Part shown: positions 143 to 30,800 of the stretch, piece after piece
Layout: the number at the start of each line of letters is the position of its first letter
Position numbering within the stretch: position 1 is the first letter of the stretch
From: Ruminococcus sp.
GTDB taxonomy: Bacteria > Bacillota > Clostridia > Oscillospirales > Acutalibacteraceae
Length of the DNA: 32,102 nucleotides
Direction: 5' to 3'
Assembly (NCBI GenBank): GCA_023665555.1
Contig: JAMPDR010000028.1
Coordinates: forward strand, 1-32,102
Position numbers and translations under genes: made by a program
The notes under the pieces: generated by a model
Databases searched by the model: none
What the model was told of the DNA's origin: nothing
What the model saw: only the letters and a program-made list of their open reading frames with translations

Positions 143-199
143 AAGTGGCAGTTGTTAAGCAGTGTTACAATATATTTTTCGTTGCTTAAGCCAATATAT

Positions 200-288: not shown

Positions 289-317
289 TCAAGAGACAAT
301 AAAAAAGATATTGTCCC

Positions 318-346: not shown

Positions 347-454
347 CCGTTTTAGGCGACATTTTTTCGAGAGTCAATTTCGTAGATATAAAAAGGCTAT
401 TTTCCCTTTGCGTAAAGGTTCGAACTCTCACGACAACTGAATATCAACCAAATC

Positions 455-488
455 AGGCAGATAGAAGAAAAATCTATCTGCCTTTTTG
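455..488 (+). terminator. Intrinsic terminator
   Basis: The 11-bp perfect stem AGGCAGATAGA / TCTATCTGCCT is followed by TTTTTGTT. No coding gene ends just upstream, so it may be left over from a lost element gene or act as a second stop after the tRNA. Confidence 0.75.
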
Positions 489-510
489 TTGCCCGAAAGG
501 AGCTGACAGA

Positions 511-1242
511 ATGAAAAAACAAACCGATATGCTGTGCATAAAAGAATTGGCACGAACATTTTTGACTCTGGATATAGAAACAACTCCGCACAGTCCTATC
601 ATCGTAAAGCATCCGTTTACCGATACGGGTTTCGTAGGATTTAAAGACAAAGATTATCCGTCGAATCTGTTGGAAGATGAAAATGCCCTGCTCCGATGGC
701 GAGAGCAGATGAAAAGCTTCATCAACAAATGTGACTCGCCGCATCATATTTTTATGCTGCTGACAAAGGCATACCGCATGGTCTTTCTGAAATATGCCGA
801 GCCGTATATGTCGCAGAAAGACTTTTCCGAAATTCTCTCGGATGTATGGACGGAGACGGAAGCGCCGCACAACGATCCGAATTTTACGACAGCAGAGTTT
901 GTTCGTCTTTTCCGGCAAGCTGATCCCTCCTGCCTCATGGATGAGGACGAATATGAGCAGTTTCAGGGTTTGGACGATACGCTGACCGTCTACAGAGGCG
1001 TTACCTCATATAACGCAGACAATGTGAAAGCGCTGTCATGGACGCTGAATCCCGATACCGCTGAGTGGTTTGCCAACCGATTCGATGAGGACGGGACGGT
1101 CTATGAGGCGCAGATTGAGAAAGCTCACATCTATGCTCTGTTCAACGGCAGAAACGAATCCGAAATCGTTGTCGATCCAAAGTATCTGATGGATATAACC
1201 GAATATCAGGAGCAGACGAACGGTTTTGAGCAGACCATGTAA
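511..1242 (+). CDS. Accessory protein with ADP-ribosyltransferase-like C-terminus
   Basis: A 243-residue soluble protein with no signal peptide. The start is set by AAAGGAG (495-501), 9 nt before the ATG. I recognise no named family with certainty. The C-terminal third has the spacing expected of an R-S-E ADP-ribosyltransferase fold: VYRG (R162), LSWT (S176), then NESEIVVDP with E216/E218. The N-terminal two thirds give no domain clue. It is followed after 28 nt by another gene of conjugative-element type, and VirD4 remnants lie downstream, so it is probably ICE cargo. Whether it modifies a protein or nucleic acid cannot be told from sequence. The ART assignment rests on motif order only. Confidence 0.75.
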   Translation: MKKQTDMLCIKELARTFLTLDIETTPHSPIIVKHPFTDTGFVGFKDKDYPSNLLEDENALLRWREQMKSFINKCDSPHHIFMLLTKAYRMVFLKYAEPYMSQKDFSEILSDVWTETEAPHNDPNFTTAEFVRLFRQADPSCLMDEDEYEQFQGLDDTLTVYRGVTSYNADNVKALSWTLNPDTAEWFANRFDEDGTVYEAQIEKAHIYALFNGRNESEIVVDPKYLMDITEYQEQTNGFEQTM

Positions 1243-1270
1243 AATCTTAAAATCTGAAAGGAAAAAGAAA

Positions 1271-1927
1271 ATGACAATTTATCAGCGCGAACTGCTGCGG
1301 CAGTTACCCAAATTTGATTGCACGGGGCAAATGTACAATGAAAGCGGAAAGCTTCATATTTCGGCAAACGGAATCCCACTCGGCATTGCAGGCAAAAAGA
1401 ATGAATTGTATTGGAATCAGGACGGGCAGATCAGAGACAGCTATCGGTCAACACTTGCTTCCATCAGTGATGCAGCAAATTCCATTCGTGAATATGTATC
1501 CCTTTATGAAGCGTCCCCTCCGCTCGGTATTGTCGATCTTCCCGAATACCGCAGGCTTTCCGAATACGGCAATACCGTTCTCGGCGCAATGTACAGCGAG
1601 CAGCACGGATTTATGTTTTCAACATGGCATCAGAACAAAGAACGAAACTATGTAATACACGGAGATTACTCTGCCGATTATGCATACGCAAAAAAATCCT
1701 TTGTCATCCGATCGGGGCTTGTAGATGAAAATCTCATGATCACTTTTGAAGAAGCGGAAAATCTGTACCGATGCATTGATTATGTCAGAGAAAACTGCGA
1801 AACGCTCACCTACGATCAGGAACAGCAGCTCAAAGAACTCACGAGAAAATTGGAATACGGATATCCCCGGCTTGAAGAGAATCCGCCCTCATTCGAGCAG
1901 GACGAATCACCGCAAATGAATATGTAA
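1271..1927 (+). CDS. Conjugative-element accessory protein of unknown function
   Basis: A 218-residue soluble, acidic protein. The ATG at 1271 is chosen over the in-frame start at 1226 because GAAAGGAAAAAG lies just before it and the longer form would overlap the upstream gene. The first 45 or so residues, with repeated short hydrophobic beta-like stretches, are followed by a helical segment and a charged C-terminal tail rich in E, P and Q. I do not recognise an enzyme motif or DNA-binding domain. It is in tandem with the ART-like gene (28-nt gap) and ends at a strong terminator, so the two probably form an operon from an integrative conjugative element. Confidence 0.7.
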   Translation: MTIYQRELLRQLPKFDCTGQMYNESGKLHISANGIPLGIAGKKNELYWNQDGQIRDSYRSTLASISDAANSIREYVSLYEASPPLGIVDLPEYRRLSEYGNTVLGAMYSEQHGFMFSTWHQNKERNYVIHGDYSADYAYAKKSFVIRSGLVDENLMITFEEAENLYRCIDYVRENCETLTYDQEQQLKELTRKLEYGYPRLEENPPSFEQDESPQMNM

Positions 1928-1934
1928 TTTTATC

Positions 1935-1982
1935 AGCCTCCGGCTTTTGTTTTATCTTACTGCAAAAGTCGGAGGCTTTTTG
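1935..1982 (+). terminator. Terminator of the 511-1927 operon
   Basis: AGCCTCCGGCTTTTG pairs with CAAAAGTCGGAGGCT (one G-T pair), followed by a T run. It starts 8 nt after the stop codon. Confidence 0.85.
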
Positions 1983-2010
1983 TATTTACAGACAAAGGAG
2001 AGAAAGAACT

Positions 2011-2040
2011 ATGGCAAGGAAGGTGCAGAGATTATTGTAG
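2011..2040 (+). pseudogene. Truncated gene start (9 codons) at a chimeric join
   Basis: A good ribosome site (AAAGGAGAG, 1995-2003) precedes an ATG that opens a 9-codon frame, MARKVQRLL, then stops. The VirD4 reading frame takes over within the same 20-30 bases in another phase. The simplest reading is that the 5' end of an unrelated gene was joined to the interior of the VirD4 gene around 2020-2030. The stub is too short to identify. Confidence 0.35.
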
Positions 2041-2607
2041 ACAATACGCAGATCACGCTGTTCGGCGGTTTCGCTCCCAACAGCAGCTCGGCAGAGGTAC
2101 TCTCCAAAGCGCTCGGCAGTAGAACGGTAATGAGTGGATCGGTCAGCCGTTCAAAGAATGATCCCTCCCAATCCCTGCAAATGATAGAGCGACCGCTTAT
2201 GACTCCCGACGAACTCAAATCCATGCCGAAAGGACAATTCGTTGTGATGAAAACGGGATTCCATCCGATGAAGGTAAAGCTGAAACTGTTCTTCAAATGG
2301 GGCATCGAATTTAACGAGGATGATCCGTACACCGTAGAGGACAACGGCGGTAGAGAGGTAATCTACGCCGAGAAGAAGGAGATCATGGACGGAATCGTTC
2401 AAAAGTACCACGCCGATTGGCTCATCAAGGAAGAACCGCCGACGGACAGCGAATCCGCAGGCGGTCAGGCGCAGACAGAAAGTCAAAGCAACGAGCCGCA
2501 ACACACTCCGCCGAACAAACCAAAGAATAACGGCGGTGGTCAGGGTACGGCTTTGCGGACGAGCAGGCAGAAACACAACTCACCGCCGAAAGTGCAGGAG
2601 GTAAGCG

Positions 2608-2621
<14 letters not shown>
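2028..2621 (+). pseudogene. VirD4/TraG coupling protein, C-terminal fragment
   Basis: This fragment matches the last part of the type IV secretion coupling ATPase (VirD4/TraG) that links the relaxosome to the mating channel in Tn1549-like elements. The recognisable stretch runs LGSRTV, DPSQSLQ, RPLMTPDELKSMPKG, VMKTG and HPMK, followed by a hydrophilic Q/P/N-rich tail. The N-terminal membrane segments and the Walker A and B motifs are absent: full-length proteins are roughly 600 residues, and only about 198 codons remain. The frame is open further upstream to 1947, but that part has no VirD4 similarity and overlaps the terminator. It overlaps the start of the following helix-turn-helix gene, an order typical of these elements. 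Confidence 0.8.
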
Positions 2622-3322
<701 letters not shown>

Positions 3323-3324
3323 CC

Positions 3325-3390
3325 ATGAAAAGAATATTTGCGTTACTTTTAACCTGCGCACTGCTTGCTTGGATGCAGAACTCCCTCTGA
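3325..3390 (+). pseudogene. Signal-peptide stub of a lipoprotein or secreted protein
   Basis: AAAGGAATTTAACC followed by ATG opens a 21-codon frame, MKRIFALLLTCALLA, that has the Lys/Arg start and hydrophobic core of an export signal, then runs into foreign codons and stops. It starts 2 nt after the stop of the reductase half. The mature protein is missing, so it cannot be named. The join to the next fragment is near 3370. Confidence 0.45.
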
Positions 3391-3676
3391 CAGAGAAAAA
3401 AGCATCTGTGCAATGTTTGACTCGTTCTGCGTTACCGTTATACGGAATTGCAGCAGAAATCTAAAACGGGCAGCGGAAAACAGAAGAAAATACGACGCCA
3501 CCGGCGAGGATTCGGTGGACTACCTTATTGAACTGCTTTCCCACGAGGACACCTATGAGTCGGAGCAGTTGGTGTTTTATGCGGACGGCTACCCTTGTGT
3601 CGTAGAAAGCGAAAGAATGTATAAAGCACTACGATCCTTGCCGGATAATCAGCGATTGGTTCTGCTCTATTACTTT
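3389..3676 (+). pseudogene. Sigma-70-like regulator of a conjugative element, fragment
   Basis: The frame reads REKSICAMFDSFCVTVIRN, NLKRAAENRRKY, YLIELLSHEDTY, YADGYPCVV and LRSLPDNQRLVLLYYF. This matches the small sigma-factor-like proteins of Tn916/Tn1549-type elements: the MFDSFCxTVxRN start and the LP-x-x-Q-R region just before sigma region 4. Both ends are lost. There is no start with a ribosome site, and after YYF (3676) the sequence continues as unrelated AT-rich DNA although the frame stays open to 3811. The promoter-recognition helix-turn-helix is therefore missing and the fragment should be inactive. Confidence 0.65.
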
Positions 3677-3740
3677 TGTCCCTTCTCGTTTGCTTCCATT
3701 ATTTTCTGCTCGAAATTCAAAAAATATTTTCAATTATGTA

Positions 3741-3769
3741 TTGCTTTTGTCCGCACAATCGTGTATAAT
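3741..3769 (+). promoter_or_regulatory. Promoter of the toxin-antitoxin pair
   Basis: TTGCTT at 3741-3746 and TATAAT at 3764-3769 with a 17-bp spacer, 44 bp before the antitoxin start. Confidence 0.75.
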
Positions 3770-3812
3770 AGAGATGGATCAAGAAATCATAACTTTGAAA
3801 GGAGTTTTTGAT

Positions 3813-4115
3813 ATGGCAAAATCAGCAAATCTTTATGCACGAATCGAACCGGATTTGAAGGAACAGGCGGAGAGCATCCTTAACGCCCTCGGTATTCCTG
3901 CGTCTAACGCAATTACTATGTTTTACAGACAGATTATTTTGAACAAAGGTCTGCCTTTTGAGGTGAAGCTACCGAATCATCCGCTGGATATCAGTCTTAT
4001 GACCGCAGAGCAGTTCGACGCAGAACTATCGAAAGGATATGAGGATATCCGGGAGGGACGCACAATTCCCATGGAGCAGGCTTTTTCCGAAATCCGTAAG
4101 GAATGCGGCATATGA
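3813..4115 (+). CDS. relB: RelB/DinJ-family antitoxin
   Basis: A 100-residue antitoxin of a type II toxin-antitoxin pair. The N-terminus, LYARIEPDLKEQAESIL followed by NALGIPASNAITMFYRQI, is the ribbon-helix-helix DNA-binding and dimer module of the RelB/DinJ family. The acidic C-terminal half (from about residue 60) is the part expected to wrap and neutralise the toxin. The ATG at 3813 is chosen because GAAAGGAG lies 8 nt before it; the frame is open upstream but without a better start. It overlaps the toxin by ATGA, so the two are translationally coupled. Such pairs usually repress their own promoter, here at 3741-3769. Confidence 0.9.
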   Translation: MAKSANLYARIEPDLKEQAESILNALGIPASNAITMFYRQIILNKGLPFEVKLPNHPLDISLMTAEQFDAELSKGYEDIREGRTIPMEQAFSEIRKECGI

Positions 4116-4435
4116 CATATAGAATTGAAATTACCGCTACTGCGAAAAGAGATTTAATCGATATTTTTTCCTATATCGCAACCGATCTCGGTTCTCCGCA
4201 GACGGCGGCAGGACAGCTTGAGCGCCTGGAAAAAGCGATTTCGTCTTTGGATCAGATGCCGGAGCGGTTTCGCAAATATGAAAAAGGGATATGGCAGGAG
4301 CGAAATCTTCGCATTATGCCTGTTGACAATTACCTTGTCTTTTATATCCCGAATCATGATAAAGCTGTTGTTACCGTTATGCGTGTAATGTATGGCGGAC
4401 GGGATATTGACAGGCATTTGAGAGAGATGCAATAA
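4112..4435 (+). CDS. relE: RelE/ParE-family toxin
   Basis: A 107-residue basic protein of the RelE/ParE fold. It has MTYRIEITATAKRDLIDI at the N-terminus, a central helix pair with RLEKAI and LDQMPERF, RIMPVDNYLVFY in the core strands, and a C-terminal VMRVMYGGRDIDRHL, the usual ending of this family. RelE members cut mRNA on the ribosome and ParE members poison gyrase; the sequence does not decide which. The start is the ATG that overlaps the antitoxin stop. It appears intact and may be the only functional cargo left in this decayed stretch, consistent with the addictive retention of such pairs. Confidence 0.9.
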   Translation: MTYRIEITATAKRDLIDIFSYIATDLGSPQTAAGQLERLEKAISSLDQMPERFRKYEKGIWQERNLRIMPVDNYLVFYIPNHDKAVVTVMRVMYGGRDIDRHLREMQ

Positions 4436-4453
4436 CGATCTAAATAATCTATG

Positions 4454-4482
4454 AAAGAGTCGAGAAATCGGCTCTTTTATTT
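4454..4482 (+). terminator. Terminator of the toxin-antitoxin operon
   Basis: AAAGAGTCGA pairs with TCGGCTCTTT around a GAAA loop, followed by a T-rich tail. It starts 18 nt after the toxin stop. Confidence 0.85.
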
Positions 4483-4508
4483 TGCCCGGAAAGTCCGGGC
4501 ATTTTTTA
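4483..4508 (+). terminator. Second, GC-rich intrinsic terminator
   Basis: TGCCCGGA / TCCGGGCA with a 3-nt loop, followed by six T. It stands back-to-back with the previous terminator and probably came with the phage fragment that starts just after it. Confidence 0.88.
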
Positions 4509-4534
4509 TGCCGTTTTGAGGGAGGTGACACGGT

Positions 4535-5629
4535 ATGGCAGACAATTTCGGACTGAAAATCGGTCTTGAGGGCGAAAAGGAATTCAAGAAGGCGTTGTCT
4601 GATATCAACTCGTCCTTCAAGGTTCTCGGCTCGGAAATGAAACTGGTTTCTTCCCAGTTCGATAAAAACGATAACTCGGTGCAGGCACTCACCGCCAGGA
4701 ACACCGTCCTGAACAAGGAGATCGAAGCACAAAAGCAGAAGATCGAAACCCTCCGCTCGGCTCTCGAAAACGCCGCTTCCTCCTTTGGGGAAAACGATAA
4801 GCGGACGCAGAACTGGCAGATTCAGCTTAACAACGCAGAGGCCGCCCTCAACGGCATGGAGCGAGAACTCAAGCAGAACAACGACGCCCTGGACAAAGCC
4901 GCCGAGGAATTTAACGACGCCGAAAAACAGGCGGATGAATTCGGTGACGAGATCAAGGATACCGGCAGGGACGCCGATGAAGCGGGCGGAAAGTTTGAAA
5001 AGCTGGGCGGTGTTTTGAAGGGAGTCGGCGTCGCTGTCGGTGCGGCTATGGCAGCAATCGGCACTGCCGCCGCTGCCGCAGGAAAAAAGCTCTACGACAT
5101 GGCAAACGATGTGGCGGCAGTGGGCGACAACATCGACAAAATGAGCCAAAGGCTTGGTCTCTCCCGTGAAGCCTATCAGGAATGGGACTATGTCCTGTCC
5201 CAGAGCGGCGTGGATATTGACAGCGTGCAGACGGGTATGAAAACCCTGACGAACACCATCGACGACGCTAAAAACGGCACGGACAAGGCAATCGAAAAGT
5301 TCACACGGCTTGGTATCTCTACCGAAGACCTGGCAAACAAATCCCGCGAAGATATCTTTGCCATGACCATCGCAGGCTTGCAGCGGATGACGGACGATAC
5401 CGAAAAAGCCGCCCTCGCCAACGATATGTTCGGCAAAAGCGGACAGGAGATGATCCCGCTTCTGAATCAGACGGCCGAGTCTACACAGGAGCTTATCGAC
5501 AAAGCCAACGAAATGGGCATGGTCATGAGTGACGGCGCTGTGCAGGCGGCTGTGGATTACACCGATGCTATGGACACCTTGAAGCGCACCTTCTCCGGCG
5601 TAAAAAACAACATCGTTGGGAGTTTGTAA
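4535..5629 (+). pseudogene. Phage tail tape-measure protein, N-terminal fragment
   Basis: 364 codons from the start of a tail tape-measure protein, the ruler and DNA-channel component of siphophage tails. Residues 1-130 are helical and coiled-coil, with repeated heptads and many K, E and Q. Residues 165-190 form an Ala/Gly-rich hydrophobic segment (GVAVGAAMAAIGTAAAAAG). After that comes the typical start of the tape-measure core, ANDVAAVGDNIDKMSQRLGL and FGKSGQEMIPLL. The start is well supported by GGGAGGTGAC. Family members are usually over 700 residues; here the frame breaks near 5613, where serine-recombinase sequence begins in another phase. The base composition is visibly more GC-rich than the ABC-3C genes downstream. 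Confidence 0.85.
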
Positions 5630-7011
5630 AGGTATATACGGACGAAGGCATAAGCGGTACAAATACAAAGCACCGTGACGGCTTCAACCAAATGATAGAG
5701 GACGCTTTGGTTGGTAAAATTGATTTGATCGTCACCAAGTCGGTCAGCCGATTTGCAAGAAATACGGTAGACAGCCTGGTAACCGTCCGTAAACTCAGGG
5801 AAAAAGGCGTGGAGGTGTTCTTCGAGAAAGAAAACATTTACACCCTCGACAGCAAGGGCGAATTGCTTATCACCATTATGTCAAGTCTTGCACAGGAAGA
5901 AAGCCGCTCCATTTCCGAAAATGTCACCTGGGGTCAGCGGAAACGCTTCTCGGACGGTAAAGTGTCGCTGCCGTATAAGCAGTTTCTCGGCTATCGCAAA
6001 GGAGAAAATGACCTGCCTGAAATCGTGCCGGAGGAGGCAGATTTGGTGCGTCGAATCTACTCCATGTTCATGCACGGAAAAACAGCCTGCACCATAGCCG
6101 GTCAGCTTACCAAAGAAGGCATTCCGACGCCGGCCGGAAAAAGCAAGTGGCAGACGAGCACTATAAACAGCATTCTCACAAATGAAAAATATAAAGGCTC
6201 GGCTCTTTTGCAGAAAAAATTCACGGTCGATTTTCTTACCAAGACGATGAAAAAGAATGAGGGCGAAGTTCCGCAGTATTTTATTGAGCACAGTCACCCT
6301 GCGATTATCGACCCATTGGAATTCAAGCTGGTGCAGAACGAAATGGAGCGGAGAAAAGCGTTCGGTCGTAGATACAGCGGCGGCAGCGTGTTTTCCTGCC
6401 GAATCGTATGCGGTGATTGCGGAGAATATTTCGGCTCAAAGGTATGGCATTCAAACAGTAAATACCGCACGGTCATCTGGCAATGCAATGCGAAATTTGA
6501 CGGCGATAAAAAGTGCAAAACACCGCACTATACCGAAGAAGAACTGAAGGAGCGTTTCCTTGCCTCCTACAATTCCTTATATGAGAACCGAGAGGCTCTG
6601 CTTGAGGACTGCCGACTCATTCAACAGTCGTTTTCCGATTGTTCGGAGATTGACACCGAAATTTCGGAACTGCGGGCAGAAATTGAGGTAGTGACGGAGC
6701 TTACACACAAATGCATAGCCGAAAACTCCAATACGGCACTTAACCAGGAGGACTACACAGCAAGGTACGAAACCCTGGTGGAACGCTACAATCGGGCAAC
6801 CGATCGCCTTGAAACTCTTGAAAAATCAAAAGCGAAGCGGAGTGCAAAAGCGGACGCCATAGAGGCTTTCATGTTCCGGCTTTCGGAGCAAGACGAACCG
6901 CTCACGGAATTTGACGATGTGCTTTGGCTGACGGTGATTGACAAGGTCACAGCGCACGAGGACGGGCGGTTAGTTTTCAAATTTCAGAACGGTATGGAGA
7001 TAGAGGCGTAA
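5617..7011 (+). pseudogene. Large serine recombinase lacking its catalytic N-terminus
   Basis: This frame encodes about 464 residues of a large serine integrase/transposase of the TnpX/TndX type. It opens inside the resolvase domain at WEFVKVYTDEGISGT, then has KIDLIVTKSVSRFARNTVDSL, the Recombinase domain (about residues 150-250), a zinc ribbon with CGDCG and later C-x5-C cysteines (about 265-305), a long coiled coil, and a conserved C-terminal end. The first 50 or so residues, which carry the nucleophilic serine, are missing, so it cannot catalyse strand exchange. The first in-frame ATG is 5692, but similarity begins at 5617, directly at the join with the tape-measure frame. It may have been the integrase of a lost phage or ICE. 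Confidence 0.88.
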
Positions 7012-7029
7012 ACTATCATATAAAATAAC

Positions 7030-7072
7030 AACTCAAAACCGTCACAGTAACTTGCTGTGACGGTTTTGAGTT
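7030..7072 (+). terminator. Terminator after the recombinase fragment
   Basis: The 18-bp perfect stem AACTCAAAACCGTCACAG / CTGTGACGGTTTTGAGTT has a 7-nt loop. The arms are A- and T-rich at the base, so it could work in both directions. Confidence 0.8.
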
Positions 7073-7096
7073 TGAAGTGATTTTTTACTTTTAGTA

Positions 7097-7125
7097 TTGA
7101 AAATATCACGAACTCGTGATATAAT
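7097..7125 (+). promoter_or_regulatory. Promoter with palindromic operator in its spacer
   Basis: TTGAAA (7097-7102) and TATAAT (7120-7125) have an exact 17-bp spacer. A perfect inverted repeat, ATATCACGA-AC-TCGTGATAT (7103-7122), fills the spacer and runs into the -10 box. A dimeric repressor bound there would block RNA polymerase. The XRE protein encoded 32 bp downstream is the obvious candidate. Confidence 0.85.
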
Positions 7126-7157
7126 AGTTTTAATCTGTAATCTAGGAGAGTAGGTTA

Positions 7158-7379
7158 ATGGCAGTTAGCTATAAAAAATTGTTTCATCTAATGATAGAAA
7201 AAGAGATCTCCAATGTCCAATTACAACAAAGAGCCCAAATCAGTGCAAATGTAATTACTCGTATGAAAAGGAATCAATATATTTCTTTAGAAAGCATTGA
7301 ATATATATGTCGTGCATTAAATTGCGATATAAATGAAATTTTAGAATTCACTTCAGCAGACGAAAAGATTGAACATTAA
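7158..7379 (+). CDS. Small XRE-family repressor of the ABC-3C cassette
   Basis: A 73-residue protein that is almost only a helix-turn-helix (about residues 5-65), with VQLQQRAQISANVITRMKR as the helix-turn-helix and YICRALNCDINEILEF closing the fold, as in Cro/CI-like regulators. AGGAG (7143-7147) lies 10 nt before the ATG. It is the first gene after the palindromic promoter, and its stop is 20 nt before the nuclease-like gene, so it most likely represses the whole four-gene unit, including itself. Codon use is AT-rich like the next three genes and unlike the recombinase fragment upstream. Confidence 0.88.
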   Translation: MAVSYKKLFHLMIEKEISNVQLQQRAQISANVITRMKRNQYISLESIEYICRALNCDINEILEFTSADEKIEH

Positions 7380-7399
7380 AAAGTGAAAGGAGCATGACG

Positions 7400-8602
7400 A
7401 TGATTGAGCATAATATACACGATGCTTCAGGCCAACTATCGGGTTATCTGTATCAGGTGCTTTCTGCACTTCTACTCCTGTTAGGGAGCAGAAATCCCGA
7501 TTCGCAACTTTGCATTGAAAAATTTGATGATGTTACTTTTGTAGAAAAAGATACGCCTCAAATTATGATTCAAGTTAAGCACCAACTTTATCGACGAGGG
7601 AGTTTGAGTGATACTAGCATTGATTATTGGAGAACGATAAAAAGCTGGTGTGATTATATAAAAAACAACGGTCGCTCCAAAGACACAACTGATTTTGTTA
7701 TTATCACAACAGCGAAAGCGCAAAATAACTCAATAGCATTTTATTTGCAAAACATGAGTTCTCGTGATTGGAAAAAAGCACTTGATATTATGCGTCAAAC
7801 GGCAGATTTAAATGCATCAGAGACCAATAAGAGCTATTATGATGCTTTTAATTCATTAAACGATAAGCAACAAGAAACTTTGGTTAAGCATATTTATGTA
7901 TGTGATATGAGTCCTAATATTGGGGAAATAAAAGAAAGTATTATGCCGTATGTACGTGTTATAACACTTCAACCTTTTGAAGATCGTGTATACGAAAAAA
8001 TAGTAGGGTGGTGGATTGTTTCTGCAATTCAATGTTTAATTTCTGATGAACCAGTGTTTATTAGTTATCGACAATTGCAAAAAAAGATGAATGATATTGG
8101 TAGTGAATATAAAGCGGATTCTCTTCCAATAGATGTTGATCCATATTACCAACCGACAGATGATGAATTAGAACAGTTGCCACCTGAAAATAGAATATTC
8201 ATTGAGCAGTTAGGCTTAATAGCTATTTCTAACAGTCGTTTAAAGCGGTGTATTCGAGACTATTATAACGCCTACTGTCAAAGAAGTCAGTGGGTCAGAG
8301 AACAATTACTATTTATCAATGACTTGGAAAAATATGAAAGAAGGCTCGTTGATGAATGGAATAGATTATTCTTGATAATGAAAGAAGATTTGGAGGATTA
8401 TGGTGATCAGCTCACTGAAAATCAGAAGCAGTTTGCAGGAAAAAAGTTATTTGGCGAAATTGAAAATTTGTCATTGCCAATAAGAAGTAATGTTCCAGAT
8501 CCATTTATTATGCGTGGTACATATCATGAACTTGCTAATCAACTTTCCGTTGGATGGCATGTTGATTTTATGGATCGCTTATGTAAAATATTAAAGGGGT
8601 GA
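7400..8602 (+). CDS. ABC-3C system effector, nuclease-like N-terminus
   Basis: A 400-residue protein and first component of an ABC three-component (ABC-3C) system. The N-terminus, GQLSGYLYQVLSALLLL, then E40, D43/D44 and QVK at 58-60, follows the PD-(D/E)xK pattern of restriction-endonuclease-fold effectors related to DUF4297. The region SDTSIDYWRTIKSWCDYI is characteristic of these proteins. The C-terminal part (about 250-400) should be the ABC-3C C-terminal domain that docks with the partners. The start is ATG 7400, not 7394: AAAGGAG ends at 7392, leaving a workable 7-nt gap only to 7400. Expected role, by family and context: DNA cleavage triggered through the ATPase, perhaps during phage attack. 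No activity is shown by sequence alone. Confidence 0.82.
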   Translation: MIEHNIHDASGQLSGYLYQVLSALLLLLGSRNPDSQLCIEKFDDVTFVEKDTPQIMIQVKHQLYRRGSLSDTSIDYWRTIKSWCDYIKNNGRSKDTTDFVIITTAKAQNNSIAFYLQNMSSRDWKKALDIMRQTADLNASETNKSYYDAFNSLNDKQQETLVKHIYVCDMSPNIGEIKESIMPYVRVITLQPFEDRVYEKIVGWWIVSAIQCLISDEPVFISYRQLQKKMNDIGSEYKADSLPIDVDPYYQPTDDELEQLPPENRIFIEQLGLIAISNSRLKRCIRDYYNAYCQRSQWVREQLLFINDLEKYERRLVDEWNRLFLIMKEDLEDYGDQLTENQKQFAGKKLFGEIENLSLPIRSNVPDPFIMRGTYHELANQLSVGWHVDFMDRLCKILKG

Positions 8603-11177: not shown

Positions 11178-12377
11178 TCATATCAGTTTCAGAATGCCCG
11201 CAAAAGGCTGTAGGCTGCGTTTAAGAATACCGTTCATCTGAGCAATTGCAATTCCGTAATTGACAATAGGGACACCTGCTGACTTTGCTTTGCCCATTCT
11301 GTGTTTCATCTCTTTTTCATTAAGCATACATCCGCCACAGTGAATAATAAGTGAAAAATTCGAAAGATCGTCAGGAAACTCACCGCCTGACGTGAAGATA
11401 TATTTCGGCTTTTCCCCTGTAAACTTTTCTATCCACATCGGAAGTTTCACCGTTCCAATATCACCGCATTGGCGATGATGTGTACAGCCTTCGGATATCA
11501 GTACTTTGTCGCCGGATTTTAACTGCGACAGCCGTGCAGCACCCTTTACAAGTTCTGAAAGTTCCCCCTTGTAACGTGCAAACAATATCGAAAAAGATGT
11601 GAGCATAACATCATCAGGTGTATCTTTTGATACTTTTTCAAATGCTTGCGAGTCGGTAATTATAAGTTTCGGCTTTACCGCAAGTGATTTCAAAGTCTGA
11701 CTCAACTCTGTTTCTTGGCAGGCAACAACAGAACAATGCGCATCAAGTATATCACGCATAGTTTGTTGCTGAGGGAGAATAAGCCTGCCTTTGGGAGCGG
11801 ATTCGTCAATTGGAATGACAAGAACAACTGTATCCCCTTGCGAGAGAAGATCGGAAACTATGTGTTTGGGCTTTTCTGTTCTCTTTGCGAAAGTTCCTAT
11901 CTTTTCTTTCAACTCGTTTATGTTTTCTCTTACGGCGGCACTAACATATATCTCATAATCCTTACATGGTTTTCGCTCAGAAATAAGATCCACCTTGTTA
12001 TACGCTACAATATATGGCTGATTCCTCTCTTCAAAGAGCGAAATAAGTTCTTTGTCGGCAGAATCAAGTCCTTTTGTACTATCCGTAACAAGCACAGCAA
12101 TATCGGTGATTGCAAGAATCTGCTTGGTTTTTTTGATGCGAAGTTCTCCCAAAGTTCCTTCATCGTCTATTCCGGGAGTGTCTATAATCACAACCGGGCC
12201 GAGCGGTAAAAGTTCCATCGCCTTTTTTACCGGATCCGTGGTCGTTCCTTTTACATCTGAAACCACCGCCAGTTCCTGCCCCGTAACAGCATTGACAAGG
12301 CTTGATTTGCCTGCATTTCTTATCCCGAAAAATCCAATATGAATTCTTTCGGCAGTTACGATGTCATTAAGTCCCAT
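11178..12377 (-). CDS. hydF: [FeFe]-hydrogenase maturation GTPase HydF
   Basis: A 399-residue scaffold protein on which the 2Fe subcluster is assembled before transfer to apo-hydrogenase. The GTPase domain has the P-loop GIRNAGKSS (18-26), the switch region GTTTD, DTPG (66-69) and NKVD. The C-terminal cluster domain has CTH (C298, H300) and HCGGC (H346, C347, C350), fitting the family pattern CxH-x(about 45)-HCxxC that holds a [4Fe-4S] cluster. Length is normal. The start is supported by GAAAGGAAC. It is the last gene of the maturation operon, 18 nt after hydG, and ends near a bidirectional terminator. No hydA structural gene is adjacent, so the client hydrogenase is encoded elsewhere. Confidence 0.96.
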   Translation of the reverse strand: MGLNDIVTAERIHIGFFGIRNAGKSSLVNAVTGQELAVVSDVKGTTTDPVKKAMELLPLGPVVIIDTPGIDDEGTLGELRIKKTKQILAITDIAVLVTDSTKGLDSADKELISLFEERNQPYIVAYNKVDLISERKPCKDYEIYVSAAVRENINELKEKIGTFAKRTEKPKHIVSDLLSQGDTVVLVIPIDESAPKGRLILPQQQTMRDILDAHCSVVACQETELSQTLKSLAVKPKLIITDSQAFEKVSKDTPDDVMLTSFSILFARYKGELSELVKGAARLSQLKSGDKVLISEGCTHHRQCGDIGTVKLPMWIEKFTGEKPKYIFTSGGEFPDDLSNFSLIIHCGGCMLNEKEMKHRMGKAKSAGVPIVNYGIAIAQMNGILKRSLQPFAGILKLI

Positions 12378-12395: not shown

Positions 12396-13844
12396 TTAAA
12401 AGCGGAAATCTCTGCGATTAGAGTTTTTTATGTTATCTATATTCTGCTTTGCTATTGCCCTAACCTTTTCTTTTGGTATCTTCATTAGTTCCTTTTCAAC
12501 CATTTCATAGCCGACTTTTTTCGTTTCCGCCGATGCATAATCCTCCAGGTATTCGGAAAGTGTCATTAAAGCGTTGGGATGGCAACAGTTGAGTATCTGA
12601 CCGCTTTTGCAAAGACTCATAAAACGATCTCCCGTTCTGCCTTCACGATAGCAAGCGGTGCAAAAAGATGGAATATGTCCGTTTTCCATCAGCCAGCGAA
12701 CAACTTCGTCCAATGTGCGTTGGTCAGAAACATCAAACTGCTCTGTATCATGCGGACGCTCAGCTTCTGTATAACCTCCGACAGATGTGCGCGACCCTCC
12801 GCTTACCTGAGAAACACCTAAACGCAACAACTTTGAGCGAACCCGTTCGGATTCACGGGTAGAAATAATCATACCGGTATACGGTACAGCAAGTCGGATA
12901 CAGGCTGTGATTTTTGCAAAAGTTTCATCATCAATACCGTTATCAAATTCATCGGGATCAATGTCATCTGCATGTTTGAGCCTCGGAACGCTGATGGTAT
13001 GCGGCCCTACTCCGTGAACTGCTTCCAAATGCTCTGCGTGCATGATTAGTCCTGCAAACTCATATTTGTACATTTCAAGACCGAAAAGCACACCAAGACC
13101 GACATCGTCAATACCTGCCTGCATGGCCCTGTCCATAGCTTCTGTATGATAGCCATAATCGTGCTTTGGACCTGTCGGATGCAGTTCAAGGTAGCTCTGT
13201 TTGTGATATGTTTCTTGAAACAAAATGTAAGTTCCGATTCCTGCTTCTTTAAGCTTGCGGTAATTTTCAACCGTCGTAGCCGCAATGTTGACATTTACTC
13301 TGCGAATATCTCCATTCTTATGGTGAACGCTGTAAATCGTTTTGATGCAGTCCAAAATGTATTCAATCGGGTTGTTAGTCGGATCTTCTCCGGCTTCGAT
13401 TGCCAGTCGCTTGTGTCCCATGTCCTGAAGTGCAATAACTTCCGCACGGACTTCGTCCTGCGTCAGCTTTTTGCGAGGAATCGTTTTATTTTTCATGTGA
13501 TATGGGCAGTACACACAGCCGTTAACACAGTAATTGGACAGATAAAGCGGTGCAAAGATAACGATGCGGTTACCGTAAAACGCAAGTTTGATCTCCTCAG
13601 CTATCTCATACATTTTCTCGATTTTTTCAGGGAGTTCACAAGCAAGAAGAACCGATGCTTCTCTGTGGGTCAATCCTAAACAGATGCATCCTGTTTCTGT
13701 TTTCTTAGGACGCGCCTTTTCAAGAATTTCGTCAATCAGCTTCTCGTTATTCTTGTTCTGTTCGGCATATACCAGGGTTGCACGGATTTCTTCATCGTTT
13801 ATAAATTCCTCCGCTTTAAGTGATTTTGGGTTATAACCAGCCAT
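12396..13844 (-). CDS. hydG: [FeFe]-hydrogenase maturase HydG, tyrosine lyase
   Basis: A 482-residue radical-SAM enzyme that splits tyrosine to p-cresol plus the CO and CN ligands of the H-cluster. The SAM cluster motif CX3CX2C is at C106, C110 and C113. The C-terminal cluster motif CX2CX22C, where the dangler-iron cluster binds, is at C395, C398 and C421. Both are intact and the length is typical, so the enzyme should be functional. The N-terminal MAGYNPKSLKAEEFIND is family-like. AAAGGATT lies before the ATG. It sits second to last in the operon, 50 nt after hydE and 18 nt before hydF. Confidence 0.97.
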   Translation of the reverse strand: MAGYNPKSLKAEEFINDEEIRATLVYAEQNKNNEKLIDEILEKARPKKTETGCICLGLTHREASVLLACELPEKIEKMYEIAEEIKLAFYGNRIVIFAPLYLSNYCVNGCVYCPYHMKNKTIPRKKLTQDEVRAEVIALQDMGHKRLAIEAGEDPTNNPIEYILDCIKTIYSVHHKNGDIRRVNVNIAATTVENYRKLKEAGIGTYILFQETYHKQSYLELHPTGPKHDYGYHTEAMDRAMQAGIDDVGLGVLFGLEMYKYEFAGLIMHAEHLEAVHGVGPHTISVPRLKHADDIDPDEFDNGIDDETFAKITACIRLAVPYTGMIISTRESERVRSKLLRLGVSQVSGGSRTSVGGYTEAERPHDTEQFDVSDQRTLDEVVRWLMENGHIPSFCTACYREGRTGDRFMSLCKSGQILNCCHPNALMTLSEYLEDYASAETKKVGYEMVEKELMKIPKEKVRAIAKQNIDNIKNSNRRDFRF

Positions 13845-13894: not shown

Positions 13895-14944
13895 TTATTT
13901 TATTATATCTCCACGGTCGGTAACTATTTCATATCCAACCGAAAGAATTCTTCTTTCAAGGCAGCCTCTGCATTGAGCAGATTCTTCACCTGTACATATT
14001 TTGTTGTTATAAAGCTCATATTTTTTTCTGACTGATACAGGCGATAAATTCGGCATCACAACATTCGCTCCTGCAAGTATTCCTTTTTCTCTGCCGCTTG
14101 AATCAATCGTGCCGAGTGCCGTTGTTGACGGCAACAGAATTGAAGGATGAACAAGGCGGATTACAGACAAAAGATAACAGGTCAAGTCTACTGTTCCGGA
14201 TGGTTCATTCGCAAAGACAGTATCTTTATGCGGTATAAACGGACCAATTCCGCACATATCAGGCTTAAATGTTTCGATAAATTTAAGATCCTTTGCCAAA
14301 GTTCTATTGGTCTGAAACGGCGATCCTACCATAAATCCGCATCCAACCTGATAGCCGATTTTTCTAAGATCAAGCAGGCATTTCATGCGGTTATCAAAGG
14401 ACATGTCGGCAGGATGAAGTTTTTCGTAATGTGCTTTGTCGGCAGTTTCATGGCGGAGCAAATATCTGTCTGCACCTGCATCAAATAATCGTTGGTAGCT
14501 TTCACGGCTTCGCTCACCGACAGAAAGAGTTACAGCGCAGTCAGGGTATCTCTCTTTTATCTTACTGACAATACTGCATAGCACATCATCAGTAAAATAT
14601 CCGTCTTCTCCACCCTGCAAAACAAAAGTACGAAAGCCGAGCGAATATCCTTCGTCGGTGCAGGCAAGAATTTGTTCAGGTGACAGCCTGTAACGTTCGC
14701 AATTTCGATTACTCTTTCTTATTCCGCAGTAAAAACAATCGTTTTTGCAAATGTTGCTGATTTCAATCAGTCCACGAACAAAAACCGATTTTCCGTAGAT
14801 ATCATGCCTAACTTTAACCGCTCTTTCGGAAAGAACAGCCGTAGCTTTTTCGGAACGGTTTTCTATCAGATATTCATAATCTTCAAGCGAAAGCTGATGT
14901 TCTTCTGACAGCATTTCGATTATAGAAAACAGTTTATCAGTCAT
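13895..14944 (-). CDS. hydE: [FeFe]-hydrogenase maturase HydE
   Basis: A 349-residue radical-SAM TIM-barrel enzyme that acts on the HydG product to build the azadithiolate-bridged 2Fe precursor. The SAM cluster motif is ICKNDCFYCGIRKSN, with C66, C70 and C73. LQGGEDGYF, the LRHETAD region and GFMVGSPFQT are further family marks. C-terminal cysteines in QCRGC could hold the second, non-essential cluster seen in some HydE proteins. The start codon lies within the end of the upstream TM1266-like gene (8-nt overlap), so the two are coupled. Confidence 0.96.
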   Translation of the reverse strand: MTDKLFSIIEMLSEEHQLSLEDYEYLIENRSEKATAVLSERAVKVRHDIYGKSVFVRGLIEISNICKNDCFYCGIRKSNRNCERYRLSPEQILACTDEGYSLGFRTFVLQGGEDGYFTDDVLCSIVSKIKERYPDCAVTLSVGERSRESYQRLFDAGADRYLLRHETADKAHYEKLHPADMSFDNRMKCLLDLRKIGYQVGCGFMVGSPFQTNRTLAKDLKFIETFKPDMCGIGPFIPHKDTVFANEPSGTVDLTCYLLSVIRLVHPSILLPSTTALGTIDSSGREKGILAGANVVMPNLSPVSVRKKYELYNNKICTGEESAQCRGCLERRILSVGYEIVTDRGDIIK

Positions 14945-15194
14945 TGGTTTTAATTCCGGAAAATGCAGTTTTTACGCTTATGCCGTGAAGATTGCCTATT
15001 TTTCCTGCCAAGGTTGAAATAGTATTCTGAGGCGCATCAATTGCAATGCTTATGATATTAATATTTTTCTGTCTGTATGGAATTCCCATTCTTCCAATGA
15101 TGTATTCTCCGTATTCATGCAAAATCCCGTTAAGCTTTTCAACGGTTTCACTGTTTTCGACAATAATACTCATAACCGCTACTCTTGTTTCCAT
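14937..15194 (-). CDS. TM1266-like iron-only hydrogenase system regulator
   Basis: An 85-residue protein of the TM1266 family, a small ferredoxin-like (ACT/NikR-C-like) fold found beside hydE/F/G. It starts RVAVMSIIVEN, has ILHEYGEYIIGRMGIPY in the middle and INIISIAIDAP towards the C-terminus, all typical. Its exact job is not settled; it lacks a DNA-binding domain and is usually annotated as a putative regulator of the hydrogenase system. The ribosome site GAGGAAAT precedes the ATG. It is the first gene of the operon and the one directly behind the switch-like leader, so it should be the most tightly coupled to leader folding. Confidence 0.9.
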   Translation of the reverse strand: METRVAVMSIIVENSETVEKLNGILHEYGEYIIGRMGIPYRQKNINIISIAIDAPQNTISTLAGKIGNLHGISVKTAFSGIKTND

Positions 15195-15323
15195 ATATAT
15201 TTCCTCATTTCTTCAAAAAATGCTGCACCTGACAAAGGTACAGCATTAATAATCTATATAGCATAAATTAAGAAAGCCATACCTTTCAAGCAGACAAAAG
15301 TCTTAATGTCAGGTTGATTCTTG
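15195..15323 (-). promoter_or_regulatory. Switch-like 5' leader of the hyd operon
   Basis: The leader is about 128 nt from the predicted transcription start to the TM1266-like gene. Two exclusive folds are possible. One is the terminator at 15215-15247. The other is a three-way junction: ACCTGAC (15308-15314) with GTCAGGT (15227-15233), a small hairpin AGAC-TTTT-GTCT (15292-15303), and AAAGGTA (15280-15286) with TACCTTT (15234-15240). The first and third helices meet without a gap and use up the core of the terminator. This is the layout of a riboswitch or attenuator. I do not recognise it as a known class, and no ligand can be assigned. Confidence 0.55.
15215..15247 (-). terminator. Leader terminator of the hyd operon
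   Basis: In the minus-strand transcript AATGCTGTACCT pairs with AGGTGCAGCATT (12 bp, one T-G pair), with loop TTGTC and a following run of T. It ends only about 20 nt before the first start codon and after a good promoter, so it is placed to stop transcription before the operon. Upstream leader segments at 15280-15286 and 15308-15314 can pair with its core and would disrupt it. Confidence 0.75.
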
Positions 15324-15329
15324 TATACT

Positions 15330-15358
15330 ATTTTATCAAACAATAACATATAAGTCAA
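15330..15358 (-). promoter_or_regulatory. Sigma-A promoter of the hyd operon
   Basis: On the minus strand TTGACT (15358-15353) and TAAAAT (15335-15330) are separated by 17 bp. Transcription should start near 15323. Confidence 0.8.
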
Positions 15359-15452: not shown

Positions 15453-15482
15453 TTGACAAACCGTATTTCTTTGTGCTATATT
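15453..15482 (+). promoter_or_regulatory. Promoter of the ABC exporter
   Basis: TTGACA (15453-15458) and TATATT (15477-15482) with an 18-bp spacer, the only strong promoter between the hyd promoter and the ABC genes. Confidence 0.75.
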
Positions 15483-15490
15483 ATTGTTGA

Positions 15491-15506
15491 GTTAGCGAGC
15501 GCTAAC
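15491..15506. promoter_or_regulatory. TetR-like operator 1
   Basis: The perfect palindrome GTTAGCG-AG-CGCTAAC overlaps the expected transcription start of the exporter promoter. It is the size and style of a TetR-family operator. No TetR gene is in the window. Confidence 0.65.
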
Positions 15507-15537
15507 AAGCAGCGTTCGCTTCTTCTTATAAGCCAGA

Positions 15538-27141: not shown

Positions 27142-27163
27142 CATGCAAATTTAATAGATTGTG

Positions 27164-27344
27164 AAATACGGTTTGAAAAGTTGTTAACTGAGTAGATGAA
27201 AAGGGAAATCCGGTTCGAATCCGGAGCAACCGCCATTACTGTATTTGATATGGTTAAGCCGAGCACCTATGCATTGTTCATTTATAGCAGAAAGCATATG
27301 ATGCAGCTTACCTAAAATCATAAGTCAGAACACCTGCCGTATTT
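27164..27344 (+). promoter_or_regulatory. Cobalamin riboswitch
   Basis: A P1 stem AAATACGG (27164-27171) / CCGTATTT (27337-27344) encloses the class hallmarks: AAAAGGGAA, CCGG-x-GAATCCGG-AGC, an ACCGCCATTACTGTA segment matching the usual CCCGCAACTGTA core, and AAGTCAGAACACCTGCC just before P1 closes. The order and spacing fit the B12 riboswitch family, with some departures from the common form (for example ACCGCC for CCCGC and no clear GCCACTG box), so it may be a variant subclass. It should lower expression of the two genes downstream when cobalamin is plentiful. Confidence 0.88.
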
Positions 27345-27398
27345 TAAGGAAGCTATGATTTGATTCTGAGTTTCCTTTAGGTTTAACACAACTTTGGT

Positions 27399-27550: not shown

Positions 27551-27567
27551 ATTTGGAGGGATCGTTA

Positions 27568-27810
27568 TTGATTGCAGACAACAAAAAGAATTGGGCTATT
27601 GAAATGCTTAAAGAAAAAGCAGACGAACTTGAACGTATACCAAAAAAAGATGATTTTGATGAGGTTACGCGTTCAAGAATCAAAGCTTATTTAGGTCCAT
27701 GGCCGCGCGCGTTGGAAACAGCAGGACTTAAGCCGCCAAAAGAGCCTAGAAACACAACAGAACATAGAAGAAAGAAGCGAAACAAAATTATTACTCAGGA
27801 GGAAAACTAA
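27568..27810 (+). CDS. Small homing-endonuclease-associated-repeat protein
   Basis: An 80-residue basic protein with one HNR-like repeat: helix (NWAIEMLKEKADEL), RIPKKDDF, RSRIKAYLGPWPRALETAGL, then a Lys/Arg-rich tail. Such repeats bind DNA in homing endonucleases and in stand-alone small proteins. No nuclease motif is present. The start is TTG 27568, 7 nt after GGAGGG; the in-frame TTG at 27553 overlaps the ribosome site. It lies between the cobalamin riboswitch and the giant secreted protein (1-nt gap), so it is under B12 control. It may be a small regulator, but its role is unknown. Confidence 0.75.
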   Translation: MIADNKKNWAIEMLKEKADELERIPKKDDFDEVTRSRIKAYLGPWPRALETAGLKPPKEPRNTTEHRRKKRNKIITQEEN

Positions 27811-27811: not shown

Positions 27812-30800
27812 ATGAACAATACAGTAAAACGAATATCAGCATTTTTTGTGACGGTTGTCATGGTGCTTTCCATGCTGTCAACAATGGCTTTGGCCGTGGA
27901 AAATGATACAATAGTATCAGTCAGCGATGCCGCCGAACAGCAAAATGTACCGGATGAAATCATCACAACCTATGAACAACTCAAAACTTTTGCCGATAAG
28001 GTCAACAACGGTGATACATACGAGGGTAAGCTTGTTCGCCTTGATGTTAACATCGAACTCGGCGGCGAAGCTAATCCGTGGATGGCAATAGGTCAGCCAT
28101 ACAAATCAAAAGAAGAGCCTGAGAAACCGTTCAAAGGTACTTTTGACGGAAACTATCACGTTATCAGCGGCCTGTATATCAACGCATCCACAACGCAGCA
28201 AGGCTTGTTTGGTATCATCGGAAACGGCGGAACAGTCAAAAATGTTTCCGTAAAAGGACAGATTATAACTTCAAGCGGTTACGCTGCGGGAATCGCAGGA
28301 ACAAACAAAGGTACAATCGAAAACTGCTTAAGTGAAGTAAACATTACCTGCACAAAGGGCGGTGTACATTTTCATGGAGGGATTGCAGGAGGCAACAGCG
28401 GAACGATAACCGGTTGCGCAAACGTTGGTTCATTAAACATTTCTTTAGCAAACAGTGCCACCGGCGGAATTGCAGGTCAGAACACAGGAATTGTGAGCAA
28501 TTGCTATAACGTTGGAGAAATCAGCAATCCATCCGGCTCGCACGTTGGCGGTGTTGTCGGTCAAATGCGCTCATCAGGTGCAACTGTTGAAAGTTGTTTT
28601 AATATCGGAAAAGTAACAGGTTCAACCAATGTCGGCGGTGTTGCCGGACAACTGCAATCAAAAGCAGTAAAAAATTGTTTTAATCTCGGCATTATCAACG
28701 GAAAAACTTGTGTCGGCGCAGTTATCGGTCAAAGCTATTCCAGCACTGAAAACGAAAACAACTATTACCTCATAGGCACTGCAACTTACGGCATCGGAAG
28801 CAGTTCAAACACTGACGGCGCAAAGACATCCGATGAAATGAAAGCAGTTGACTTCGCCGCTCTGCTCGGATCTTCATTTGAATCAGGCAGCGACTACCCT
28901 GTTCTGGCATGGGAGAAGAACATCAGCACAGCTAAACCTGTACGTCCTGCATTTAATGAAAAGACTGAACTTTCGGCAAAACTTGCAAGCTATATCAGAC
29001 TGGCCGTTAACAGTACGAAAACAAATTACGAATTGAATTCCGCTGATTCACTGCTCGGAAATGAAAAGTATCTTTCGGACGCAAGTTCAACCGCGACCGA
29101 CTGGATGGCTCTTGCAATGGGCCGTTTCGGATATCGCGATATTGACGATACTTATCGCTATATGATTGATGACGGCGAAGGATATGAAAAATACCTTGCC
29201 GCAATGAAAAGTTATATCGAAGAAAGATATACTGAAAATAATGGTCATCTAAACGATTTCAAAGCAACTGAATGGCACCGTGCGGCTGTTGCTATTGCCG
29301 CTTTACAAGGTGATCCGCTCAACTTCGGCACTTATAACGACCAACCTATAAACTTAATTGCAGACGGCAGCTACAGCTGTGTTGTTGATGGCGGTGTTGC
29401 AAAACAGGGCATCAACGGACTTATCTGGGGACTTATTGCGTTGGATGCAGGTTTTTATGATGTACCCGATGACGCAAGTCTTACAAGACAAGGCTTCATC
29501 GAAGAACTTCTCAAACTTCAATTAACAGACGGTGCTAACGGTAACGAATACGGCGGTTGGGTTCTCAGCGGCTACGGCAGCAGTTCAGATGTTGATATCA
29601 CTGCAATGGCAATCCAGGCGCTTGCACCGTATTATAATGATGATACAGTTTATACTTACACAAATGAAAGCAGTAAAAAGCAGGTTGCAAAAACAGTCAG
29701 ACAATGTGTTGACGAGGCATTGGACAGACTTGGCTCAATGTTCAGCAGTGATGCGGCATTTTCTTCATGGGACACCCAAAACGTTGAATGTGCGGCTCAG
29801 GTTCTCGTGGCTTTGTGCAGTCTTGGAATCAATCCTGCAAATGATGGACGCTTTATCACCGAAAAAGGTGAAACCTTGCTTGACGGAATTATGAAATTCC
29901 GTGTTGAAAACGGCGGTTTCTCACATACGTTGAACGGTGGTTGGAACTCAATGGCAACCGATCAGGTAACTTATGCTTTGGTTGCATATTGGAGATTTGA
30001 AAACGGACTTCGCTCACTCTATGACATGAGAGAAGAACACACAAAAGACTTTGATGAAAAAATCGCATCTGTTGAAGCAGCAATCAGTGAAATCCCGAAT
30101 CAGCCGACAAACAAGGAATACAAAGAAAAAATCAAAGCCGCTCTTGAAAAAGCCGACAGCATTAAGTTTGATGAAAGACGCTATATCGGAAATTACGAAA
30201 AACTCGCAACCGCACTTTCGATTATCGGCGGCAGAGATAAGGCTGATACGGATGAGCCGTTTATCACTTCAATAATAGTGACAAGAAATCCGAATGTAAC
30301 GACCTATTTTGCAGGCGAAAAATTCAATAAAACAGGTATGATAGTAGCCGCAAGATACAGTGACGGCAGTGAAGAGGAAATAAGCGATTACAGAATCTCA
30401 CAAACCGATGAACTTAAACTCGGAGTTGATACAGTTTATGTTATCTACGGTTTACTCAAAACTACAGTTACTATCACCGTACTTGATAAACTTCCTTGGA
30501 GCGGTGAAGGCACTGAAAACAATCCGTATTTGATCACAAACACATATGAACTTACGGATCTTGCAAGACGCGTTAATGACGGCAACAGCTTTGAGAACAG
30601 AGTATTTGTCTTGGCTGATAACATTGATTTGAGCGATATTCAATGGACACCCATAGGATTATATTCTTCAAGACAGTTTGATGGTATCTTTGACGGACAA
30701 GGCTATGCAATTGACAACCTTAGTTCGGAACGCGGCGGACTGTTTGGATATGTCGGCTCTAACGCTGTTATAAAAAATGTTGGTGTTGCAAGCGGTATCA

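Follow-up and report, generated by a model that had tools for sequence, protein, structure and literature searches.

A candidate transcription-terminating riboswitch in the leader of H-cluster maturation genes

The products of the hydEFG genes act in the assembly of the active site (H-cluster) of the hydrogen-making [FeFe]-hydrogenase. In the 32,102-nucleotide stretch of Ruminococcus sp. DNA analysed here (the window), these genes lie behind a short gene for a TM1266-like protein, and the maturation operon has a job in this genome, since the [FeFe]-hydrogenase large subunit is represented by two PF02906 matches. The leader of the operon raises the question of whether its transcription is governed by the nascent RNA itself and, if so, what the RNA responds to. 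As the best explanation, to which we assign a probability of about 0.6, the leader represents a new class of transcription-terminating OFF riboswitch for H-cluster maturation genes, matching nothing in Rfam 15.

Switch elements in the leader of the maturation operon

A promoter match, an intrinsic terminator, two segments complementary to that terminator, and a small hairpin had been pointed out in a preliminary description of this DNA, and all of them are confirmed in the minus-strand leader of TM1266–hydE–hydG–hydF (Table 1). The promoter match alone means little, because its 10-kb stretch contains 25 such sites versus 27.8 expected from shuffles; the start of transcription is expected near position 15322. 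As described, ACCTGAC (15308–15314) is the exact complement of GTCAGGT (15227–15233), which is located in the loop and 3′ arm of the terminator, and AAAGGTA (15280–15286) is the exact complement of TACCTTT (15234–15240), with no gap between the two pairings. The second pairing is longer than the 7 bp that had been noted, comprising 11 bp between 15276–15286 and 15234–15244, the latter being the 5′ arm of the terminator and the target of the antiterminator. The hairpin between the two segments (15292–15303) is AGACUUUUGUCU, and the three-way junction suggested for the alternative fold is the minimum-energy fold predicted for the leader. Its folding energy of −35.3 kcal/mol, compared with −20.6 ± 3.3 kcal/mol in 200 shuffled sequences (z = −4.47), was reached by none of the shuffles, which argues that the fold is not due to chance. 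A fold combining the terminator with an enforced P1 helix (Table 1) is nearly equal to the minimum (−32.7 vs −33.0 kcal/mol; −31.6 vs −33.0 kcal/mol in a shorter slice).

Table 1. Elements of the leader and genes of the operon in the window
Feature	Position	Strand	Remarks
Promoter match	15330..15358	−	−35 TTGACT 15358–15353, 17-nt spacer, −10 TAAAAT 15335–15330; 10/12
Conserved sensor element (putative aptamer)	15281..15314	−	Covariation on 81 sequences; model matches
Sensor helix P1	15311–15314 with 15281–15284	−	
Sensor internal loop	15304–15310 and 15285–15291	−	
Sensor hairpin P2	15292–15303	−	
ACCUGAC	15308..15314	−	P1 5′ strand and loop; complements GUCAGGU 15227–15233
Antiterminator 3′ strand AAAGGUAUGGC	15276..15286	−	Overlaps P1 3′ strand; 11 bp with 15234–15244
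Linker hairpin	15249..15268	−	Between sensor and terminator; from predicted fold
Intrinsic terminator	15214..15246	−	Hairpin 15220–15246 and U run; −15.8 kcal/mol
TM1266-like protein, first operon gene	14937..15194	−	85 aa; PF21699, TIGR03959; related to PDB 2NZC
hydE	13895..14944	−	TIGR03956, 585 bits
hydG	12396..13844	−	TIGR03955, 914 bits
hydF	11178..12377	−	TIGR03918, 561 bits

Other regulatory features were observed on the plus strand of the window. A strong divergent promoter match (15453–15520; TTGACA-18-TATATT, 11/12) is followed by a hairpin and lies ahead of plus-strand ABC transporter genes. A cobalamin riboswitch (RF00174, 53.2 bits) at 27152–27355 is followed by a short ORF with an HNH_repeat match (27553–27810), and then by a 3′-open reading frame (27812–32101) for a protein of 1430+ residues that matches Big_3 and, weakly, GLUG; such a gene is unusual behind a B12 riboswitch.

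The putative sensor in related leaders

Among the matches listed by a DNA similarity search with the 164-nt leader, none was a homologous leader from another genome; leaders were therefore collected by way of the TM1266 protein, which was found in 56 of 98 relatives and whose upstream regions carry a common element. The consensus of about 35 nt consists of P1 (ACCU:AGGU), an internal loop (GACANNA / G(A/C)GUGAA; GACAUUA/GCUUGAA in the window), and the variable hairpin P2, and the layout in relatives is ACCUGACANNAAG, the hairpin, CUGMGUGAAAGGUGCGG, a variable linker, and a terminator whose 5′ arm is often GCCGNACCUU. The comparison of the relatives' TM1266–hydE leaders and with Rfam, proposed earlier as a check, thus yielded a recurring covarying motif and no significant Rfam match. 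While the preliminary description had delimited no sensor, the candidate switch that it put forward is borne out, and its sensor can be placed in the P1–loop–P2 region around 15281–15314. The covariance models match at 15270–15320, the only match in this genome at the thresholds used, with E-values of 7.8e-6 (model R1) and 7.8e-7 (R2), the window sequence being a training row of both.

Covariation was evaluated in a MAFFT alignment of 32 relatives, with 3 of 35 segments left unaligned, and in a model-based alignment of 81 distinct sequences (80 upstream of TM1266 and one of hydG), which by its construction favours the model. Among the 81 sequences, 75 cells of P1 and P2 were changed on both sides, compared with 30.4 in shuffled alignments and at most 29 with slid partners, and the covariation score was 0.282 versus 0.137 and at most 0.134, respectively. 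The alignment of 32 gave the same picture, with RNAalifold recovering P1 and P2 unaided. The variable position of P1 is C–G in 60 and U–A in 12 of the 81 sequences, while one pair of P2 occurs as A–U (41), G–C (14), C–G (9), and G–U (6). P2 is variable; in the loop, ten positions are 79–100% conserved and four others vary. Two of the five covariation measures, those more resistant to relatedness, were weak: among the 81 sequences, doubly changed pairs numbered 7 versus 5.1, a value reached in 9 of 500 shuffles, and there were 17 further pair types versus 17.9 (435 of 500), with 216 and 90 of 500 shuffles as high, respectively, in the smaller set of 32. The outermost pair of P1 is unpaired in 49 of the 81 rows. 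On the strength of these alignments, the 5′ leader appears to contain a conserved, covarying sensor domain, as does a transcription-terminating riboswitch.

The window leader had no Rfam 15 match at the gathering threshold, and relaxed thresholds gave no significant match in 60 loci (including that of the window; not all with a recognised copy of the element); the same scans gave no match to a T-box family in the window or the 60 loci. Known riboswitch classes have rare variants, and the element could be a divergent member of one of them, or a T-box, that the Rfam models miss. Sub-threshold Rfam matches do overlap single loci (L10_leader in L083, 29.9/44 bits, E = 0.16; anti-hemB in L070, 20.0/49.5 bits), but they differ between loci and look like chance, and the only three matches of the window leader at E ≤ 10 all lie on the other strand, so that we consider such a divergent member very unlikely.

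Within 38 nt before P1, a −10 box (≥5/6) was found in 70 of 93 leaders, against 42% in a mononucleotide-shuffled control, and in 50 of those 70 it lies 6–11 nt before P1. From this position of the −10 box, the sensor probably starts with the first nucleotides transcribed or immediately behind them. The often similar distance would also suit a DNA operator for a redox or iron repressor near the start site, with the terminator being a plain leader terminator, and an excerpt of PMC6391272 reports control of hydG by Rex in Caldicellulosiruptor. However, P2 varies in length and sequence yet keeps its pairing, and the 3′ strand of the element covaries with a terminator 2–118 nt away, as described in the following section; an operator is the least probable of the alternatives weighed here, and a highly improbable one.

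Coupling of the sensor helix to the terminator

According to a rule-based search, 84 of the 93 leaders (a set holding two loci twice, L212/L236 and L177/L242) have an intrinsic terminator behind the element, with a linker of 2–118 nt. Excluding the nine leaders without such a terminator and L024, in which a hairpin inside the gene was picked, 83 leaders were left, and 80 of these have P1 at the fixed columns. Two alternative partners are open to the 3′ strand of P1, namely the 5′ strand of P1 and the 5′ arm of the terminator. Pairing of the 3′ strand with the leader's own terminator amounted on average to −12.35 kcal/mol, in comparison with −9.65 kcal/mol for swapped terminators and −6.52 kcal/mol for shuffled strands, and none of 20,000 permutations equalled this advantage of own over swapped partners, either in the 83 leaders or in a thinned set of 30, although the own terminator is the best or tied in only 8 of the 83 and in the top tenth in 30. 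At the level of single bases, an A in place of G in P1 tracks a U in place of C in the terminator arm (9 of 14 vs 2 of 64, p = 5e-7, with 5 of the 83 leaders unclassified), as counted in the terminator only, an earlier version of the test having run into coding sequence. In L012 and L143, an inserted base is compensated on both sides of the pairing.

Stepwise folding of the 83 leaders predicted P1 in 62 before the terminator emerges; once the 5′ arm and loop of the terminator are out, the antiterminator forms in 73 and P1 in none, whereas swapped terminators gave the antiterminator in 38–55. When P1 was enforced, the full transcript stayed within 2 kcal/mol of its minimum in 73 of the 80 leaders and folded the terminator in 78. 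The equilibrium prediction for full leaders gave the antiterminator as the minimum-energy fold in only 9 of 80, so that most species must reach the ON state kinetically. According to these folding models, a mutually exclusive terminator and antiterminator are linked to the sensor helix, P1 being the helix that cannot coexist with the antiterminator. Of the two pairings on which the preliminary description was built, that between 15280–15286 and 15234–15240 is general, while that between 15308–15314 and 15227–15233, though real in the window, is an elaboration in this lineage and a few others, present in a minority of relatives. For the latter type, own and swapped partners pair at −6.94 and −6.29 kcal/mol, respectively, a difference matched by 2 of 20,000 permutations in the full set and by 157 of 20,000 in the thinned one. 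Of the 83 terminators, 14 contain GTCRG, compared with a mean of 6.2 and a maximum of 13 in shuffles.

For the OFF riboswitch thus envisaged, comparison and predicted folds indicate that the first ~35 nt of the transcript fold as P1, a conserved purine-rich internal loop, and P2, and that the 3′ strand of P1 (AAAGGUGCGG-like) doubles as the partner of the terminator's 5′ arm. The three helices exclude each other, and P1 is predicted to form first during elongation, followed by the antiterminator and then the terminator. In the ligand-free state, the antiterminator of ~10 bp may displace the short P1 and allow read-through into TM1266–hydEGF; a ligand on the internal loop would lock P1, block the antiterminator, and let the terminator fold, by which the operon would be shut.

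Associated genes and the nature of the ligand

In the 98 relatives, all 34 matches with E < 0.003, which are mostly the 32 training sequences of the first model, are located just upstream of TM1266, and no other genomic place scores as well. In wider scans, in which E-values are rough, about one false match per scan is expected, and downstream genes were mostly named from translations and few by profile, the matches with E ≤ 0.0028 in 391 genomes of the class precede TM1266, hydE, hydG, aspA–hydF, or a TM1266/FecCD operon in 27 of 31 cases (16 of 20 without 11 training-identical rows), the remainder being one match cut by a contig end and three unrelated. Likewise, the scan of the order, covering 394 genomes, gave 56 matches with E ≤ 0.002, of which 50 (38 of 44 without 12 training-identical rows) precede H-cluster or TM1266/FecCD genes, three are cut by contig ends, and three are unrelated. 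Weaker matches are largely unrelated: such genes follow none of nine examined in the scan of relatives, 4 of 10 further ones in the class scan, and 5 of the last ten rows of the order scan. The phylum-level scan gave 23 rows, and among nine loci examined (L258–L266) the element is followed by TM1266, hyd, FecCD, or ECF-S genes in six and by unrelated genes in three. Cultured carriers include Mobilitalea sibirica and Holdemanella porci, with model matches of 25.6 and 28.8 bits, respectively. TM1266 is encoded in 240 of the 391 class genomes and the motif is found in at most 50, suggesting that many relatives regulate the genes otherwise or have forms that the model misses. The element stands before aspA–hydF in two genomes (G389 and G186). 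This pairing is understandable, since the nitrogen in the bridge of the H-cluster can come from ammonia-lyases; aspA supplies it and sits near hyd operons, according to an excerpt of PMC11736057.

Several loci show further matches. One cluster (L354 in G1071) carries two copies, before TM1266 and before hydG. In L240, L243, L253, and L260, an apparent divergent second copy, recognised by eye, follows the first in the same leader, scoring weakly in L240 (13.5 bits) and L260 (11.1 bits) and not listed by the model in the other two; these leaders may be tandem switches, while the window has one copy. Weak matches 1.3–1.6 kb after the TM1266 start (L010, L018, L132, L135, L142, and L175), which from this distance lie near the expected end of hydE, were set aside as ribosome-binding-site look-alikes. 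Motif-like matches before the actual or expected start of hydG were seen in L353, L354, L291, and weakly in L010, L018, L132, and L135, where AAAGG could be a Shine–Dalgarno sequence; such matches might be translational versions of the switch or chance. Behind a possible tandem element in L299, positions 937–1431 encode an ECF transporter S component (PF12822, just above the cut-off), which may be a clue to the ligand.

An uncharacterised second operon is found under the same leader RNA (L298, L303, and L304). It encodes TM1266, a FecCD permease, an ABC ATPase with a C-terminal TM1266 domain, a NifH-like protein, two nitrogenase-component-1-like (Oxidored_nitro) proteins, and a likely solute-binding lipoprotein. 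Profiles were used to identify these proteins in L298 (G533; 1–7847) and the permease and ATPase in L303 (G089), the others being named by eye. HydE is encoded inside this operon in G533, adjoins it in G469 and G1125, and lies elsewhere in G089, G461, and G961; in G961, which belongs to the same genus as G089, the operon was read as far as TM1266. No HydG above its cut-off was found in these six genomes, while it is present in G389 and G186. Two gene sets thus share the RNA, TM1266–hydE–hydG–hydF–aspA on the one hand and TM1266 with the FecCD importer and nitrogenase-like proteins, in genomes with HydE and without HydG, on the other. Since the genomes with the second operon have no HydG above its cut-off, its product is probably not the common ligand, and the HydG-made Fe–CO–CN intermediate is unlikely in this role. 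Of the signals named in the preliminary description (SAM, iron, tyrosine, or a cluster intermediate), the present results speak only against a cluster intermediate derived from HydG.

The lack of HydG, together with the location of HydE within the second operon in just some of the genomes, slightly lowers the odds of a riboswitch and slightly raises those of an attenuator of the PyrR kind, in which the same helices would operate but P1–loop–P2 would be bound by a protein, most simply by TM1266, perhaps after TM1266 has bound a ligand. The gene shared by the two operon types is TM1266, which usually comes first and is annotated as 'putative regulator'; its domain is fused to the importer ATPase in L298 and L303, suggesting that it senses a ligand, namely the transported compound. 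The predicted fold of the window's protein (mean pLDDT 93.3) is β-α-β-β-α-β. This topology is common to ligand-binding ACT domains and RNA-binding RRM domains, and the modelled fold would fit a small-ligand sensor and be compatible with RNA binding as well. As a TM1266-dependent attenuator predicts, TM1266 is encoded by each of the 15 genomes checked that carry the motif ahead of a different gene, and two genomes with HydE and without TM1266 have no motif at hydE (one has a weak match, on the other strand). This co-occurrence says little, because HydE nearly implies TM1266, occurring in only 2 of 20 genomes that lack it. Simple autoregulation by TM1266 is not indicated, since the motif is downstream of TM1266 in G642 and G533. 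A further point against a bound protein is that conservation is concentrated in an internal loop whose bases are fixed, a feature of small-molecule aptamers. We regard the protein-bound attenuator as a possible but rather unlikely explanation.

Transcription attenuation by a leader RNA is known as a kind of control; here, the class and its regulon look new, and the ligand is probably new as well. No description of RNA control of hydEFG or of an RNA motif ahead of hyd genes was found in the literature searched, the 2017 catalogue being outside its scope. That study reportedly described 224 candidate RNAs. The search included PMC8632094 and PMC10418091, both as excerpts. The pyr attenuators of PyrR resemble the present system in that an upstream hairpin, when bound, prevents the antiterminator and so favours the terminator, with three exclusive helices, but no pyr genes are downstream in the loci examined and a binding protein is here only a candidate. 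The HMP-PP riboswitch (thiS motif; PMC6478431, in excerpt) likewise has a small sensor, a terminator sharing bases with the switch, and a cofactor pathway downstream; its aptamer, however, is embedded in the terminator, whereas ours is a separate upstream hairpin sharing a strand with the antiterminator, and the genes differ. RNA control tied to metal cofactors is also known from the tungsten/molybdenum cofactor riboswitches, tandem Wco copies ahead of hydrogenase genes being mentioned in an excerpt of PMC9481103, but our leaders have no Rfam match and precede other genes. A weak riboswitch candidate upstream of Geobacter nifV, as excerpted from PMC11109978, similarly precedes a gene for an organometallic cofactor, yet it concerns an unrelated host group and gene, has four representatives, and contains the Shine–Dalgarno sequence within its structure.

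Altogether, the undescribed riboswitch or attenuator suggested at the outset is supported by the covarying P1 and P2, the conserved loop, the tracking of the terminator, the strong association with one pathway, and the lack of a significant Rfam match. Because the RNA is common to both gene sets, the most probable ligand is a small molecule or a metal species belonging to the chemistry shared by HydE and TM1266. An RNA that is switched OFF by a compound of this chemistry, bound directly or via TM1266, is the interpretation that needs the least forcing. A more specific version, in which the element would be the first riboswitch for an iron-bearing or organometallic HydE/TM1266 species, shared by both systems and with TM1266 sensing the same compound, is doubtful and put forward as a speculation. 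The covarying motif and the defined gene set would make the control of H-cluster synthesis an orphan riboswitch, and a ligand-gated switch of hydrogenase maturation, if true, would serve biohydrogen strains. The same RNA ties the TM1266/FecCD/nitrogenase-like system to the chemistry of HydE and points to a shared ligand, which could reveal what the TM1266 protein senses.
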